From assembly GCF_014237875.1 (NCBI RefSeq), contig NZ_JACJVJ010000002.1:496001-560000 (forward strand): a stretch of 64,000 nucleotides of DNA. Direction: 5' to 3'. The position numbers and the translations under genes were made by a program. The DNA comes from Parasphingopyxis marina. Its GTDB lineage: Bacteria > Pseudomonadota > Alphaproteobacteria > Sphingomonadales > Sphingomonadaceae. This document shows positions 5,251 to 64,000 of the stretch, in pieces. The notes below the pieces were generated by a model. It searched no databases, was not told where the DNA came from, and saw only the letters and a program-made list of their open reading frames with translations. Position 1 is the stretch's first letter, and each line of letters begins with the position of its first letter.

Positions 5251-6603
5251 ATGGCAACCCGAATTCCCTCCCCGCCCAAGGTCGGCATGGTATCGCTCGG
5301 CTGCCCCAAGGCGCTTGTCGATTCCGAACGCATCCTCACCAAGCTGCGCTCCGACGGCTATGGCCTGTCGCCCGATTTCGACGGCGCGGACGTGGTGCTC
5401 GTCAACACCTGCGGCTTTCTCGACAGCGCCAAGGAGGAAAGCCTCGAAGCGATCGGAGAGGCGATCGCCGAGAATGGCCGCGTCATCGTGACGGGCTGCA
5501 TGGGCAAGGAAGCGGACGTCATCCGCGCGCGCTTCCCCGATGTGCTCGCCGTATCCGGGCCGCAGCAATATGAAGAGGTTGTCGGCGCCGTGCACGAAGC
5601 CGCGCCGATGCCGCCTTCGCCCTATGTCGATCTCGTCCCGGAAGCGGGGCTGAAGCTCACGCCGCGCCATTACAGCTATGTGAAGATTTCCGAGGGCTGC
5701 AACCATCGCTGCGCCTTCTGCATCATCCCTTCGATCCGCGGCGATCTTGTCAGCCGCCGGCCGGACGCCGTGCTGCGCGAGGCGGAAAAGCTGGTCGCGG
5801 CCGGGACGAAGGAACTGCTGATCATCAGCCAGGACACCTCGGCTTACGGGCTCGACCTGAAACACGCCTCATGGCCGTGGAAAGACGGAGACGTCCGCGC
5901 GCATATGACCGACCTTGCCCGCGAACTCGGCAAGCTCGGCACGGCCGAAAACCCGGTCTGGGTCCGCCTCCACTATGTCTATCCCTATCCGCATGTCGAT
6001 CAGGTCATTCCGCTGATGGCCGAGGGACTGATCACGCCCTATCTCGATATTCCCTTCCAGCATGCCTCGCCGCGCATCCTGAAAGCCATGAAGCGACCGG
6101 CCAACGAGGCCAAGGTATTGGAGCGGATCGCCAAGTGGCGCGCCATCTGCCCCGATCTCACTATCCGTTCGACCTTCATCGCGGGTTTTCCGGGCGAAAC
6201 CGAGGAGGATTTCCAATATCTGCTCGACTGGCTCGACGAGGCCCAGCTCGACCGCGTCGGCGCCTTCCGCTTCGAACCGGTCGAAGGCGCGCAGGCCAAC
6301 GCCCTGCCCGATGCCGTGCCGGACGAAGTGACCGAGGAGCGTTACGCGCGCCTGATGGAGAAATGTGCCGCGATCTCCGCCGCCAAGCTCCAGGCCAAGA
6401 TCGGCAGTATGCGCAAGGTGATCATCGACGTGGCCGACGGCGAAGGCGGCGCAACCGGCCGTTCGCAGGCCGATGCCCCCGAAATCGACGGTGAAGTCCA
6501 TCTGCGCGACGCCCACGGGCTGGAAGCCGGCGATATGGTCGATGTGAGGATCGAAGACGCCGACGAGCACGATCTGTTCGGCGTGCCGGAAATGCCGGCC
6601 TAG
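5251..6603 (+). CDS. rimO: Ribosomal protein S12 methylthiotransferase RimO
   Basis: Radical-SAM enzyme that adds a methylthio group to the conserved Asp of ribosomal protein S12. 450 residues from the chosen start [18 protein letters not shown]; the E. coli protein is of similar length. The N-terminal UPF0004 domain carries the extra iron-sulfur cluster cysteines ([25 protein letters not shown]). The radical-SAM core has CNHRCAFC (CxxxCxxC). A C-terminal TRAM domain contacts the ribosomal substrate. An ATG at 5236 would add five residues, and the frame is open further up. The stop lies in a CTAG shared with the convergent lipoprotein gene. Confidence 0.96.
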
Positions 6604-7187
6604 CTGATCCCGGCATTTCTCCGTTCGCGAGACTTGCGGTTCGACCGGCGGACCAGGAAGACGACCAGCCAGATCACGATCCCGACGAAAATGAGGAGCC
6701 CGATTCCGGCCACCGTCAGCACGGTGCCCACGGTTTCGAGCGCTTCCATCTCGGCGGGCGGCTCGTCCATGCCCTCGACGCTCCAGGCGGTAACCGTCGG
6801 GCTGCCGCCGCGCTGATAGGTATTGATGCGCGTGACCGTCCAATAGCTGTCGTCGGTCGTCACCAGCGTGAATTCCTTGTTGGTCGGCGCGTTATCGCCA
6901 AGGCTGGTGCTGTTCATGCTGTAGCTGATGATCCGGGTTTCGCCCTCGCCTTCGGGATAGGATGCCGCGGCCTGTTCGAACTCGCCTGCGCTTTCCTTCC
7001 AGATATCGGGGTCGATGACGGCCTCCAGGGCCTCCATGTCGCCCTCGCGCATGTCCGAAACGAATTGCTGGACGAAGGCCTGGTCTTCCTCCCCGACCAT
7101 CCTGTCGATCATGCCTTCCATCGTGCAGGCCGCGAGCATCGCCGCGAACAGCATCATGGCTAGATTCCTGAATAGTGTCGGCCGCAT
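6600..7187 (-). CDS. Lipoprotein with a C-terminal membrane helix, unknown function
   Basis: 195 residues, not recognised as a named family. The N-terminus is a lipoprotein signal ending in the lipobox LAAC (Cys21). The middle (about 35-150) is soluble and resembles small secreted domains with an SnoaL/DUF3887-like layout ([20 protein letters not shown], then alternating strands). Near the C-terminus is a strong membrane helix ([20 protein letters not shown]) followed by a very basic tail ([12 protein letters not shown]). A lipid anchor plus a C-terminal transmembrane helix is uncommon. The topology would place the tail in the cytoplasm if both signals work. It is convergent with rimO and divergent from the aminopeptidase. 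Confidence 0.7.
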
Positions 7188-7257: not shown

Positions 7258-8652
7258 ATGACCGATTATGCCGCACTGCTGAAGCCTGACAAGGGCCAAC
7301 AGGCCCACGACCTCCACCTCGTCAACGAGGCCGGGTTCGAAGACTGGCTGAAATCGCGCCCCGAAGGCGAACGCGAAGCGGTTCGCGCGCAGGCATTCGC
7401 CGGCAAGGGCTACGAACTCGCGATCCTGCCGGGCGAGAAGGCAGACCAGTGGTCCGCCGTGCTTGGCGTCGCCGATCCCGAGGCGCTTTCCACCTGGTGC
7501 CTTGCCAAGGCGGCGGCGACGCTGCCGGAGGGCGATTACCGGCTTTCTGAGGGCACGCCCGGCAAGGCGGCGCTCGGCTGGCTGCTCGCCCAATATCGCT
7601 TCGACGACTATAAGCAGGCGCCCGATCCCGAACAGCAGCGCATCCTCCACACCGGCGAGCCCGCGCCGATCGACGAATATGTCGCGATCGCCGAGGCCAC
7701 CGATCTCGTGCGCTCGCTCGTCAATATCCCGGCCGGCGATCTCGGCCCGGCGGAATTGCAGGACGCGGTCGAAAAGGCCGCGCGCGACCATGACGGGAAA
7801 GTCACCACAACCAAGGGCGCGGGTCTTGCCGACGGCTATCCGATGATCGACGCGGTCGGCCGGGCGGCGACGCAGGACCGCGCGCCAAGGCTCATCGAGC
7901 TGGAATGGGGCCACGACAAGCATCCGCGCCTCGCCATCGTCGGCAAGGGCGTGGTCTTCGATTCCGGCGGGCTCGACATCAAGAGCGCGGCCGGCATGCG
8001 CTGGATGAAGAAGGATATGGGCGGGGCGGCCCATGCATTGGCGCTGGCCCTGCTGGTCATGCGCCTCAAACTGCCCGTTCGCCTGCACCTTCTGATCCCG
8101 GCGGTCGAAAATGCCGTCGCCGGCAATGCTTTCCGGCCCGGCGACATCATCAAGAGCCGCAAGGGGCTGAGCGTCGAAATCGGCAACACCGATGCGGAGG
8201 GACGATTGATCCTGGGCGATGCGCTCGCCAAGGCGTGCGAGGACAGTCCGGACCTGATGATCGATTTCGCAACGCTGACGGGCGCGGCGCGCGCGGCGCT
8301 CGGGCCGGACCTGCCCGCCCTGTTCACCGACGATGACGAACTTGCCGCCGCGCTTTCCGGCGCGGGCTCGGCGATCGACGATCCGGTTTGGCGGCTGCCG
8401 ATCTGGAACGGTTATGAGGAATGGATGAAATCCGAGATCGCGGATCTTTCCAACAATTCCTCGGTGCCGATGGCCGGCGCGACGACGGCGGCGATATTCC
8501 TGCGAAAATTCGTCGAACCGGGCACGCTCTGGGCGCATTTCGATACCTTCGCCTGGCGGTCGGCGGCCAAGCCCGGGCGCCCCAAGGGCGGCGAGGCGCT
8601 GGGCCTGCGGGCGAGCTGGGAGATGCTGAAGGCGCGGTACAGGGACGACTAA
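7258..8652 (+). CDS. M17 leucyl aminopeptidase family protein
   Basis: Cytoplasmic two-metal aminopeptidase that removes N-terminal residues from peptides. 464 residues. The C-terminal catalytic domain is well conserved: GKGVVFDSGGLDIKSAAGM carries metal-binding Asp and the catalytic Lys, and the M17 signature NTDAEGRL stands at residues 310-317. The N-terminal domain is divergent, as usual for the family. The gene is monocistronic by spacing, with a divergent lipoprotein upstream and a MarR gene 94 bases downstream. The precise symbol (pepA or pepB) is left open because the N-terminal part does not decide it. Confidence 0.93.
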   Translation: MTDYAALLKPDKGQQAHDLHLVNEAGFEDWLKSRPEGEREAVRAQAFAGKGYELAILPGEKADQWSAVLGVADPEALSTWCLAKAAATLPEGDYRLSEGTPGKAALGWLLAQYRFDDYKQAPDPEQQRILHTGEPAPIDEYVAIAEATDLVRSLVNIPAGDLGPAELQDAVEKAARDHDGKVTTTKGAGLADGYPMIDAVGRAATQDRAPRLIELEWGHDKHPRLAIVGKGVVFDSGGLDIKSAAGMRWMKKDMGGAAHALALALLVMRLKLPVRLHLLIPAVENAVAGNAFRPGDIIKSRKGLSVEIGNTDAEGRLILGDALAKACEDSPDLMIDFATLTGAARAALGPDLPALFTDDDELAAALSGAGSAIDDPVWRLPIWNGYEEWMKSEIADLSNNSSVPMAGATTAAIFLRKFVEPGTLWAHFDTFAWRSAAKPGRPKGGEALGLRASWEMLKARYRDD

Positions 8653-59813: not shown

Positions 59814-59866
59814 AATCCGGTTCGACGGGGGCCCCGATCCGGCCAAGGCAAAACCAAGACAAATAT

Positions 59867-59921
59867 GACAGTTTATTTAATCTATATTTACCATTTCACG
59901 AACGAAATGAAATAGACTGTC
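59867..59921. promoter_or_regulatory. Nested inverted repeats in an A+T-rich promoter region
   Basis: The only clearly A+T-rich tract of the window lies before the MNIO locus. GACAGT (59867) pairs with ACTGTC (59916); inside it CATTTC (59892) pairs with GAAATG (59904), and CTATATTTAC with AAATAG partly extends the stem. A TTGTACAA palindrome follows at 59927-59934. This is suited to an operator or RNA leader for the peptide-MNIO operon; function is inferred from place and symmetry. Confidence 0.45.
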
Positions 59922-60010
59922 GTATTTGTACAATTTTATTGGCGATTCCGTCCAATCAATCTCCAAAAGGCCGGCCTAAACCGCTCCTCCCCAGAATGGA
60001 GGAATAACCA

Positions 60011-60238
60011 ATGCCTAAAGAACTGACCGCTTCCAGGGCGATCGCAGCGACGCCGATCCGCGTCTCCCTGCCCGCCAATGTCGCGTATGATTTCGACAAG
60101 TTCCAGAAGGTTCAGAAGGATATTCTGGGTCGCCTCGGCTGTCTCGCCTGCTGTTCGGGCTGGGATATCCGGTGGGATATCTTCCGCGATTTCCGCGTCG
60201 ACGAGAAGCTGAATGTCGAGCAAGGCCTTTTCCGCTAG
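60011..60238 (+). CDS. Small Cys-containing peptide, candidate MNIO precursor
   Basis: 75 residues with GGAGGA before the ATG. A helical, charged N-terminal half (residues 20-41, around FDKFQKVQKDILGRL) is followed by GCLACCSGWDIRWDIFRDF (residues 43-61), in which Cys44, Cys47 and Cys48 are the only cysteines and WDIR/WDIF repeats. No signal peptide and no double-glycine motif. The end overlaps the MNIO-family gene by 26 bases in another frame, so the two are translated together. MNIO enzymes modify Cys, or C-terminal Asp/Asn, of such peptides. Its role as substrate is inferred. Confidence 0.75.
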   Translation: MPKELTASRAIAATPIRVSLPANVAYDFDKFQKVQKDILGRLGCLACCSGWDIRWDIFRDFRVDEKLNVEQGLFR

Positions 60239-61679
60239 GCCCCTCGGCGTCGGTATGGTGTATCTGCCGGGGCTCGAAGCCCTGGCAGAACGCCTTGCCC
60301 CGGACTGCGACCTGTTCGAGGTCGAGCCGCAGGCCTTTTGGCGCAACCGGCCCGCAGACAGCGGGCGGCCCCATGCCGCCGCCTATGATATCGGCGTCGA
60401 CAAGCTCGCCGCGCTCCAGGCGCTCGGCAAACCCCTGCTCGTCCACAGCGTCGGCTCGCCCGTCGCCGGCTCTAACGGCCTGGAGCCCGGCCAGATAAAC
60501 GGACTGCGCCAGACGATGGCGATGCTGCGGCCGCAATGGTGGAGCGACCATGCGAGCTTTTCCTCGGTCGGCAACGGCAATGCGCGGCGCGGCGTCGGCT
60601 TCCTGATGCCGCCGCTGCAGAGCGCGGACAGCGTCGAGATGATCGTGGGTCACATCAAGCAATTGCAGGATGCGATCGGCCTGCCCTTCGCCTTCGAAAC
60701 CGGCGTCAATTATTTCGCACCCCAGCCCGGCGAACTGCCGGACGGCGAATTCTGGGGCGCCATCGCCGACCGGGCGGACTGCGGCATCCTGCTCGATCTC
60801 CACAATATCTGGACCAATGCCTGTAACGGCCGTTCTTCGGTCCTCTCGGTGCTCAATGCGCTGCCGCTGGAACGGGTGTGGGAAATCCATCTCGCCAACG
60901 GGCAGGAACATAAGGGCTATTGGCTGGACTCGCACAGCGGCCTGCCGCCCGACGCGCTGTTCGAAATCCTCGAAGCCGCGCTGCCCCGGCTGCCCAGCCT
61001 GCGCGCGATCCTGTTCGAAATCATCCCCGAATATATCGACGCCAACGCGATTCCCGAGAACGCGCTGCGCGCCATGTTCGCGCGGGTGAAAGGCCTCTGG
61101 CGCGATTCCGGCGCGCCGGCCGCCCCGCACTGGCCCAGCAGCCGCGGATCGAGCGAGCGGGAAGAGCGCTTCCTCAACGCCGAAGGCTCGCCGGCGGGCT
61201 GGGAAGCGGCGATCTGCCGCGGCATCGAGCGCCATCGCAGCGGCGCCAACCCCGACACCGCCGATCCCGCCTTCGAAATCTATTACGACCTCATCCACAT
61301 GGCGCGACGCGGCAGCATCGTCGACGCGCTGCCGCTGACCGCCCGCTATCTCTGGATGCTCTACGGCGAGGCGGGGATCGAGGCGCTTTTCGGCGAATAT
61401 TTCGCGATCACCGCGCCCCAGCCCTTCATGGCCGACGAGGCGCGCAGCTTCGCGACTTTCGTCGATGCGCAATGCCCCGACGCGCCCTATCTCGCCGATG
61501 TCGCGGCGTTCGAATTCGCCGCCCAGCGCGCGGCCAGCTCGGGCGAATGCCAGACCATCGCCTTTGGCTGCGATCCCGGCCTGCTGCTCGCCGCGATCAA
61601 GAGCGGCGAAACGCCCGGCGCCATCGCGCCGGAAACGGTAGAGCTCGAAGTCCGCCCGCCCGAACCGGTCGCCGCCTGA
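60213..61679 (+). CDS. MNIO (DUF692) enzyme fused to a DUF2063-like partner domain
   Basis: 488 residues. Residues 1-300 are the TIM-barrel of multinuclear non-heme iron oxidative enzymes: Glu36 and Glu38 in FEVEPQ, His78 in LLVHSV, Asp112-His113 in SDHASF, Glu162 in FETGVNYF, Asp195/His197/Asn198 in LLDLHNIW, His226 in EIHLAN, Asp239 and His241 in LDSHSG, Glu269 in LFEI. The family usually is 270-300 residues. Residues ~315-480 (LPLTARYLWMLYGEAGIEAL, CPDAPYLADVAAFEFAAQRA) resemble the DUF2063 or BufC/HvfC-type partner that binds the precursor. Known relatives act on Cys (methanobactin, bufferins, 3-thiaGlu). The start inside the peptide gene is needed to keep GVGMVYLPGLEAL. Confidence 0.88.
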   Translation: MSSKAFSARPLGVGMVYLPGLEALAERLAPDCDLFEVEPQAFWRNRPADSGRPHAAAYDIGVDKLAALQALGKPLLVHSVGSPVAGSNGLEPGQINGLRQTMAMLRPQWWSDHASFSSVGNGNARRGVGFLMPPLQSADSVEMIVGHIKQLQDAIGLPFAFETGVNYFAPQPGELPDGEFWGAIADRADCGILLDLHNIWTNACNGRSSVLSVLNALPLERVWEIHLANGQEHKGYWLDSHSGLPPDALFEILEAALPRLPSLRAILFEIIPEYIDANAIPENALRAMFARVKGLWRDSGAPAAPHWPSSRGSSEREERFLNAEGSPAGWEAAICRGIERHRSGANPDTADPAFEIYYDLIHMARRGSIVDALPLTARYLWMLYGEAGIEALFGEYFAITAPQPFMADEARSFATFVDAQCPDAPYLADVAAFEFAAQRAASSGECQTIAFGCDPGLLLAAIKSGETPGAIAPETVELEVRPPEPVAA

Positions 61680-63106: not shown

Positions 63107-63124
63107 GTCTAGCCGCGGCTAGAC
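63107..63124. other. 18-base perfect palindrome over the RTX gene stop
   Basis: GTCTAGCCGCGGCTAGAC is fully self-complementary, lies between the convergent purB and RTX stops, and contains the RTX gene's stop codon. It has no T-run, so termination is uncertain. Confidence 0.5.
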
Positions 63125-64000
63125 GATGATGTCGGCGAAGGTCGGCGCGACGACCGCATTGATCGTCACCGCGAAATCCGCCGATGCGTCGCCGTCGAGA
63201 TCGACCGAGAGTTCGAACACGCTGCCGCCGACATGGTCCAGCGTCACTTCGCCCGCCGTGCCGGAAAACACGCCGGTAAAGACCAACGGCCCGCCGCCGG
63301 CCACTTCGTCGGACAGGCCCGAAATGTCGATCCAGTCCGCGCCGTGCTCGAAGTCGCCGATATAGTCCATCGCACCGGTGGCATCGCTGTCGATCGCATT
63401 GTCGTAGATGAAGGCGTCCTTGCCGTCCTCGCCGAACAGATAGTCACCGCCCTCGCCGCCGACCAGCTTGTCATTGCCCTTGCCGGCATAGAGCTTGTCC
63501 TTGCCGGCGCCGCCGAGCAGGTGATCGTCGCCCTCGCCCGCGATCAGCGCGTCGTTGCCCGCGCCGCCATCCAGCGTGTCGTTGCCCTCGCGGCCTTCGA
63601 GATAATCATGGCCGTCGCCGCCGATCAGCACATTGGCGCCGCTATCGCCCGCCAGCGTATCGTTGAAGATCGTGCCGGTGAGATTCTCGAAATTGACGAT
63701 CTTGCCGCTGCGGCCGAAGCCGTCGTCGAAGATCATGTTCGCGGCAAGATCGGCGTGAACGCCCTTGGTCGCGTAGATGAGATCGGCAAGCCCGTCGCCA
63801 TCGCCATCGGGGCCGAGCGTATAGACGCCGAAGCTGAGCGTATCGTTGCCCTTGCCGCCATCGGCATAGCCGGGCGCGCCGCCCACCTGGACATAATCGT
63901 CGCCGCCCAGCGCCTCGATCTTGTCCTGCCAGTCGCCGAGGATGACGTTGCGGGCATCGGTGCCGATGAAGGTGTCCGAAAACTGGGTGCCCTGCCCGAC
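63119..64000 (-). CDS. RTX calcium-binding protein, C-terminal part (cut by window edge)
   Basis: 294 residues visible, open to the window end. At least eight consecutive nonapeptides of the GGxGxDxLx type (GGDGHDYLE, GREGNDTLD, GGAGNDALI, AGEGDDHLL, GGAGKDKLY, AGKGNDKLV and more) form the calcium beta-roll. After them comes a serralysin-like C-terminal domain and the end TFADIIV, as in type I-secreted proteins. Export by an ABC-type I system is expected; its genes and the N-terminal domain are outside the window. Confidence 0.9.
   Translation of the reverse strand, partial: VGQGTQFSDTFIGTDARNVILGDWQDKIEALGGDDYVQVGGAPGYADGGKGNDTLSFGVYTLGPDGDGDGLADLIYATKGVHADLAANMIFDDGFGRSGKIVNFENLTGTIFNDTLAGDSGANVLIGGDGHDYLEGREGNDTLDGGAGNDALIAGEGDDHLLGGAGKDKLYAGKGNDKLVGGEGGDYLFGEDGKDAFIYDNAIDSDATGAMDYIGDFEHGADWIDISGLSDEVAGGGPLVFTGVFSGTAGEVTLDHVGGSVFELSVDLDGDASADFAVTINAVVAPTFADIIV

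Follow-up and report, generated by a model that had tools for sequence, protein, structure and literature searches.

A two-gene locus of Parasphingopyxis marina with a conserved CxxC peptide and an MNIO enzyme that appears to carry its own partner domain

The stretch of DNA analyzed here (the window) comprises 64,000 nucleotides of the Parasphingopyxis marina genome (contig NZ_JACJVJ010000002.1, positions 496,001 to 560,000 of the forward strand). Near its end lie two overlapping genes that encode a 75-residue peptide and a 488-residue enzyme of the multinuclear non-heme iron-dependent oxidative (MNIO, DUF692) family. MNIO enzymes as a rule depend on a separate partner protein (PMC13419390), and three genes are normally involved; judging from its sequence, the P. 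marina enzyme appears to hold its own helper protein in the same chain. The open reading frames (ORFs) lie where an initial annotation of this DNA had placed them, with an overlap of 26 bases (60213–60238), and the features of the pair are the following.

60011–60238, + strand: candidate precursor or substrate peptide, 75 residues, ATG start (ORF, 14-row alignment)
60137–60172, + strand: core motif of the peptide, G43–R54, GCLACCSGWDIR, in which C44 and C47 are invariant
60213–61679, + strand: single-chain MNIO enzyme, 488 residues, ATG start (ORF)
60213–61112, + strand: MNIO (DUF692) TIM-barrel domain, residues ~1–300 (PF05114; Foldseek match to 8hci)
61176–61676, + strand: putative fused DUF2063-like partner domain, residues 322–488, 167 residues (hhalign; Pfam in relatives)

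The enzyme is a member of the MNIO family with its iron ligands intact. A DUF692 assignment had been proposed for residues 1–300, and PF05114 (MbnB_TglH_ChrH) indeed matches residues 70–269 with an E-value of 2.5e-37 and a score of 129 bits against a cut-off of 25; this is the sole PF05114 match found in the genome. The iron ligands of VcMbnB are His55, His91, Glu135, Asp165, Asn168, His194, Asp209 and Glu238, plus His211 (PMC8888699), and their counterparts in the window enzyme, mapped by order and spacing, are H78, H113, E162, D195, N198, H226, D239, E269 and H241. As the initial annotation held, these residues are kept: all nine positions are invariant in the 14 aligned relatives (14/14), and the same motifs occur in a fifteenth enzyme, that of locus L113. 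The best match in the PDB to a full-length model (mean predicted local distance difference test score, pLDDT, 65; 5 rows) is the TglHI entry 8hci (Foldseek E 2.2e-16). Scores against models of named MNIO types fell far below the NCBIfam cut-offs for the bufferin maturase (NF050167, 108.1 bits, cut-off 310), the oxazolin maturase HvfB (NF003818, 82.7, 360), ApyH of aminopyruvatide (81.8, 400), ChrH of chryseobasin (46.2, 600) and the MbnB equivalog (TIGR04159, 13.9, 325). A plasmid search returned 352 records with a DUF692 match, 0 of which covered 80% of the enzyme.

The chain is ~190 residues longer than the usual MNIO, in agreement with the initial annotation, and sequence profiles support the view that the extension is a diverged, short DUF2063-type partner domain. 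Comparison by hhalign of the C-terminal regions of 11 fused enzymes with a BufC-type alignment gave a score of 52.8 (E 6.5e-7, probability 92, 118 columns), compared with 21.3 for the best of 150 column shuffles, 14.7 for the reversed alignment and 14.2 for the MNIO half of the same proteins. A profile of BufC-type partners, made from 31 partner-type ORFs of fetched MNIO loci and the query (one of these ORFs in trimmed form), matched the window enzyme with an E-value of 7.1e-5 and the L034 enzyme with one of 0.0026. Pfam searches up to E 10 with five C-terminal sequences reported DUF2063 alone, in two of the five (best E 0.0027), the window row not being among them. The likeness to a DUF2063/BufC-type partner that had been proposed initially thus holds through the profiles of relatives and over 118 columns; it is not detected by Pfam or NCBIfam in the window protein taken singly, nor does it extend to the C-terminal half of BufC, since the alignment stops ahead of that half, which contains the RiPP recognition element (RRE; RiPP, ribosomally synthesized and post-translationally modified peptide). 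Short PME-type 2 partners are described as a DUF2063-like domain with a truncated RRE (PMC12452194), and the extension resembles these at the sequence level. The AlphaFold2 model of the extension (pLDDT 74, 5 rows) consists of six helices followed by a β–α–β tail. Sequence searches of the PDB recovered MNIO chains only and 0 partner chains.

The peptide has the three closely spaced cysteines that were noted initially, but only two of them are conserved: C44 and C47 are invariant, whereas the position of C48 is occupied by Cys, Thr or His among relatives. The full set of invariant columns in the 14-row alignment is P21, L39, L42, G43, C44, C47, S49, G50 and D52. No segment resembling a signal peptide was seen by hydropathy, the highest 15-residue Kyte–Doolittle mean being 1.05 (a dedicated signal-peptide program was not used). 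The window peptide has no Pfam or NCBIfam family and lacks the EGKCG motif. Among its relatives, nine NCBIfam models and one Pfam model each matched a single one of ten members, with best E-values of 0.0095–0.24, and these matches were dismissed as chance. Nonsynonymous (dN) and synonymous (dS) divergence from a congener, G1146, was estimated by the NG86 method for this one genome pair; the values are dN 0.121 and dS 1.21 for the peptide (71 codons, dS near saturation), 0.368 and 0.786 for the enzyme, 0.101 and 0.735 for radC, and 0.060 and 0.590 for purB. Because its dN/dS is like that of the core genes, we regard the peptide as a constrained protein and not a chance ORF, and in this pair of genomes the constraint on the peptide is stronger than that on the enzyme.

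In each of 15 complete loci from Pseudomonadota and Actinomycetota, the peptide gene adjoins a gene for the fused enzyme (15/15). These are the window locus and L033, L034, L035, L036, L055, L056, L058, L059, L060, L061, L083, L099, L100 and L113; one further peptide (L057) is truncated by the end of its contig and stands outside the 15, genome G894 being dropped from the count on this ground. Four loci were reached via the enzyme, one via purB synteny and nine via a peptide profile. The last group (L055, L056, L058–L061, L099, L100 and L113) was found by the peptide alone and hence constitutes an independent test of the pairing, and the fused enzyme is present in 9/9. The kept pairing agrees with the initial proposal that the peptide is the likely substrate, and on these sequence grounds the enzyme very probably modifies it. 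The initial annotation had also noted the lack of a third gene and of a transporter, and this extends to the family: taken together, the 15 loci showed no recurring third gene, transporter or metal gene, and an all-against-all comparison of 156 ORFs in the 15 stretches (ORFs of at least 90 residues, picked by GC-frame score; stretches of 4–17 kb) revealed no neighbor common to them.

Members of the family are thinly spread. A contig scan for exact occurrences of six peptide words taken from the window enzyme, which is not a sensitive method, turned up four full-length relatives, in two Oleiagrimonas, Nitrosospira briensis and one Streptosporangiaceae bacterium, each with a 71–78-residue peptide containing LGC-x-x-C encoded directly upstream. 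Peptide-profile surveys at the level of the order, made for three of the four relatives, found members in at least 4/299, at least 4/250 and at least 2/200 genomes, and those of the actinomycete's phylum and of the class of Oleiagrimonas in at least 3/198 and at least 2/219; these counts include the genome on which each survey was centered and are lower bounds, as some first-look candidates were unscored. The peptide survey of P. marina's own phylum gave matches in 4/398 genomes, namely its own and three with weak partial matches (G071, G1276 and G1290; E 2.7e-4 to 6.9e-4), which were dropped because the 9–11 kb fetched around each is without a fused enzyme. In G1290 (L095), the weak match lies in a 259-residue frame that starts with KLGCAECSTGCDLDFEF and continues into what we take to be an EAL domain.

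Among the matches listed for the 396 genomes of its own order, P. marina has the sole full-length enzyme match (1/396), the next best scoring 98.6 bits over residues 9–275, and for this reason we considered horizontal gain of the pair in this genome. The congener G1146, which is outside the 396-genome sample, has the pair at the same place, and the distribution may reflect either gain or loss; within the genus the pair adjoins purB in two of 10 genomes. The genes of the pair overlap in 8/15 loci and are separated by 3–23 nt in 5/15, by 32 nt in L113 and by 130 nt in L061, counting L083 from a CTG start and with the enzyme start of L100 uncertain. In L083, the congener's locus, the enzyme frame has no ATG, GTG or TTG near the conserved start, and the likely start is a CTG that overlaps the peptide stop (CTGA, 8128–8131, − strand). 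In L100 (G1583 5658–6647, − strand), a peptide of double length contains copies of the motif, HPACATGCDI and GCAACCSGLDI, with an LNPQPLPP stretch between them, and the fused MNIO gene adjoins it.

Over 14 loci, the identities of the peptides are correlated with those of the enzymes (Mantel r 0.61, 0/5000 permutations), a result that could be obtained from shared descent alone. In a tree built from 45 MNIO rows (15 fused enzymes and 30 other MNIOs from fetched loci, mostly of P. marina's own order, by a quick method), the fused enzymes form one side of a branch with support 99, and a single fusion event therefore suffices within this sample. The best non-fused match in the order, among the matches listed, is in G272 (L003, 1210–2870), where an 87-residue peptide with TGCACLSG and an MNIO are followed by a 158-residue third protein that overlaps by 4 nt and, from its position, is presumably the partner. 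The L003 peptide scores 29.4 against the family profile (shuffle maximum 19.6; 0/100 shuffles as good). This locus is thus like the window family in its profile-matching peptide and differs in its separate third gene and in having CxC in place of CxxC; its MNIO adjoins the fused group in the tree on a very long branch, so the placement is unsure.

Among the closest known systems, the bufferin and oxazolin loci (bufABC and hvfABC) share with the pair an MNIO of the same Pfam family, a DUF2063 partner and a cysteine-containing precursor gene directly upstream. Their precursors, however, have a Sec signal peptide, whereas none was seen in the window peptide, where only the CxxC is conserved, and they are defined by DUF2282 or EGKCG motifs, neither of which we found in the window peptide. 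BufC and HvfC (PME-type 1) are encoded by their own genes, are 250–260 residues long and have an RRE after DUF2063, in contrast to the 167-residue fused domain of the window enzyme. In the pearlin system (TglHI), a C-terminal cysteine is added by a tRNA-dependent ligase, whereas the cysteine pair of the window peptide is internal.

The initial annotation had described the locus as a minimal arrangement distinct from mbnABC, bufABC and tglHI. That distinction stands, but a single-chain MNIO as such has precedents. MovX of the Vibrio methanobactin-like system (MovA/MovX) is a one-chain MNIO that is reported to function with no separate partner protein; it has an extra winged helix–turn–helix/RRE domain (PMC12452194, PMC13419390) and targets a C-terminal Asn, whereas the window enzyme has a DUF2063-like domain and its peptide an internal CxxC. 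ChrH, like MovX, has additional domains (PMC13419390). Binding between HvfB and HvfC is weak, for which reason a fusion was engineered, and this artificial chain, MNIO first and partner second, gave more product than the co-expressed pair; HvfC is required for the active mixed-valent state (PMC13419390). The engineered protein is like the window enzyme in domain order and differs in being artificial, in that its HvfC has an RRE and in that its substrate is an exported oxazolin. A natural one-chain enzyme is plausible because the HvfB–HvfC fusion is active and because MovX and ChrH have extra domains (PMC13419390). One of the 216 proteins then in PF09836 was noted in 2009 to be a DUF692–DUF2063 protein with DUF692 at the N terminus (PMC2954202), in a passage that remarks on domain composition and mentions neither a peptide nor a function. 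In the portions of the literature that our search covered, we found no description of a natural two-gene unit of a peptide and an MNIO–DUF2063 enzyme.

The reading that we favor, and regard as probable, is that the pair is a minimal, non-exported and self-contained MNIO RiPP unit that oxidizes the cysteines of the CxxC motif, perhaps for metal binding. It is supported by the PF05114 match and the kept ligands, the partner-domain profiles, the 15/15 pairing and the constraint on the peptide. The covariation of peptide and enzyme identities, the bufferin-like operon beside the pair in G1855 and the activity of the engineered HvfB–HvfC fusion point the same way. For recognition of the peptide, the residues modified, the product, its metal and its location, we infer the following scheme. 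The first gene would give a small protein without an export signal, and the second, overlapping gene would give the enzyme. The C-terminal DUF2063-like domain would recognize the conserved N-terminal half of the peptide (IRVSLPA and the stretch up to LGC) and would bring the loop LGC-x-x-C-(C/T/H)-SG-x-D to the multi-iron site of the DUF692 barrel, which is part of the same polypeptide, for oxidation of C44, C47 or both with O2. The simplest products would be a 5-thiooxazole or an oxazolone/thioamide, of the kinds known from bufferin, oxazolin and methanobactin; 5-thiooxazoles are reported to absorb near 305 nm and to react with iodoacetamide (PMC13097082). The product would remain in the cell and would probably bind a transition metal, with copper as a first guess.

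Several observations weigh against this scheme. The peptide is conserved over nearly its full length, unlike a leader with a variable core. Neither Pfam nor NCBIfam detected DUF2063 in the window protein alone, at E-values up to 10 the partner profile reported only two of the 11 distinct fused enzymes, and a Foldseek search of the PDB with the C-terminal model (pLDDT 74) gave nothing with an E-value below 4, and hence no match to an NGO1945-like (3dee) fold. The third protein of L003 was considered as an ancestor of the fused domain and rejected (score 19.2, with 3/100 shuffles as good). No metal gene recurs across the 15 loci, and adjacency to a bufferin operon is seen in only 1/15.

Whether the precursor part of the system has already been published is a matter of naming and not of mechanism. 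We put at somewhat below even the chance that the peptide family is adjamnio-7 of Antoine et al. 2025, whose precursors have a CxxC and no signal peptide and adjoin an MNIO of a small cluster (SSN cluster 7), with a representative in Novilysobacter (PMC12452194). This description fits the window peptide, and the family has at least three members in Lysobacterales, the order of that representative, besides Oleiagrimonas. That description makes no mention of a fusion, and the main-text passages on fusions name no MNIO–partner fusion (PMC12452194).

If the same two-gene unit instead modified a non-cysteine residue of the motif, for example D52 or the SG, the cysteines would anchor iron or be structural. 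We consider this improbable. Over the 14 rows, D52, S49 and G50 show the same invariance as C44 and C47, and MNIO targets other than Cys are described for ApyH (Asp), MovX (Asn) and PbsC (Phe) (PMC12452194). However, most systems in the table of that article modify Cys, the CxxC is the center of the invariant block, and the MNIO half appears, from the model, to be nearest in fold to the Cys-modifying TglH. Slightly less probable again is export of the product as an antimicrobial or a metallophore, with the genes for its exporter and protease located elsewhere in the genome. Many RiPP precursors have no signal peptide. Genes for ABC-transporter ATPases, 38% identical to each other, lie near both Streptosporangiales loci (L036 8903–10150, − strand; L058 8080–9807, + strand). 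Against export, the neighborhoods compared (4–17 kb per locus) have no transporter that is common to the family as a whole, and almost the entire peptide is conserved under purifying selection like that on purB. The least probable of these alternatives, that the extension is an unrelated helical domain and the enzyme works without a partner, would accord with the missing Foldseek and window-row Pfam matches and with the lack of significant likeness to the L003 third protein, but it is opposed by the hhalign score, far above all of its controls, and by DUF2063 being the sole Pfam family reported.

Returning to the favored unit of a CxxC peptide and a one-chain enzyme, we can suggest, tentatively and at well under even odds, a more specific role. 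The modified protein would be cytosolic and would act inside the cell as a cofactor or a metal chaperone. A natural one-chain MNIO–partner enzyme would turn the CxxC loop of this 75-residue protein, which is conserved over nearly its full length, into a metal-binding heterocycle. Such a system would need two genes, may have an operator of its own and would be sparsely distributed among Pseudomonadota and Actinomycetota. If a non-exported, strongly conserved substrate is confirmed, MNIO chemistry would be extended to intracellular proteins. A natural single chain and a two-gene locus, if real, would provide enzyme and partner in fixed stoichiometry, of use in structural and mechanistic studies and in peptide engineering, and a fused partner domain would make the role of the partner directly testable by truncation.

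Two further features lie upstream of the peptide gene.

59858–59930, no strand assigned: palindrome with 20-nt arms (59858–59877 and 59911–59930) and three mismatches, possible operator or RNA hairpin
59918–59934, + strand: motif TGTCGNNTTTNTACAAT, common to the congener's locus (pattern match)

The palindrome contains TGTCGTATTTGTACAAT, and its RNA fold has a z-score of −6.5, with 0/200 shuffles as good; Rfam gave no match in the upstream region. Allowing up to one mismatch, TGTCGNNTTTNTACAAT has a single site in the P. marina genome, upstream of the peptide. In G1146 there are three exact tandem copies with 22-bp spacing upstream of the peptide (L083 8477–8537, − strand) and two one-mismatch sites elsewhere. 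The pattern was derived from these four upstream sites, so their fit is by construction, whereas its near-absence elsewhere is not, and this distribution suggests dedicated regulation of the pair.

The gene order in the window is radC, the pair and purB. In G1146 a gene of zinc-binding-dehydrogenase type (Pfam) stands between radC and the pair, and in G122, G316, G1149, G1150 and G1152 the pair is absent and a like gene, identified by eye, occupies the interval from radC to purB; G316 and G1150 have one further ORF there, and G1151 has a different gene. In G1147 and G1148 the pair is absent from the 694 and 923 bases of contig that precede purB. Zinc-binding dehydrogenases near L083, L099 and L100 are 22–29% identical, and unnamed neighbors of common type occur in L034/L059, L056/L060/L113, L056/L059 and L059/L061. 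In G1855 (L113, 4700–11410), a bufferin-like operon of bufA (by eye), bufB (PF05114) and bufC (DUF2063) ends ~0.3 kb upstream of the genes for two CxxC peptides in tandem and for the fused MNIO, and a gene for an FTR1–cytochrome c protein (FTR1 permease) lies directly downstream on the opposite strand; this context is a hint of metal homeostasis. At 63119–63886 of the window (− strand) is an ORF with RTX calcium-binding nonapeptide repeats (Pfam HemolysinCabind, E 1.4e-31) and a serralysin-type C-terminal match (Peptidase_M10_C, E 4e-14).

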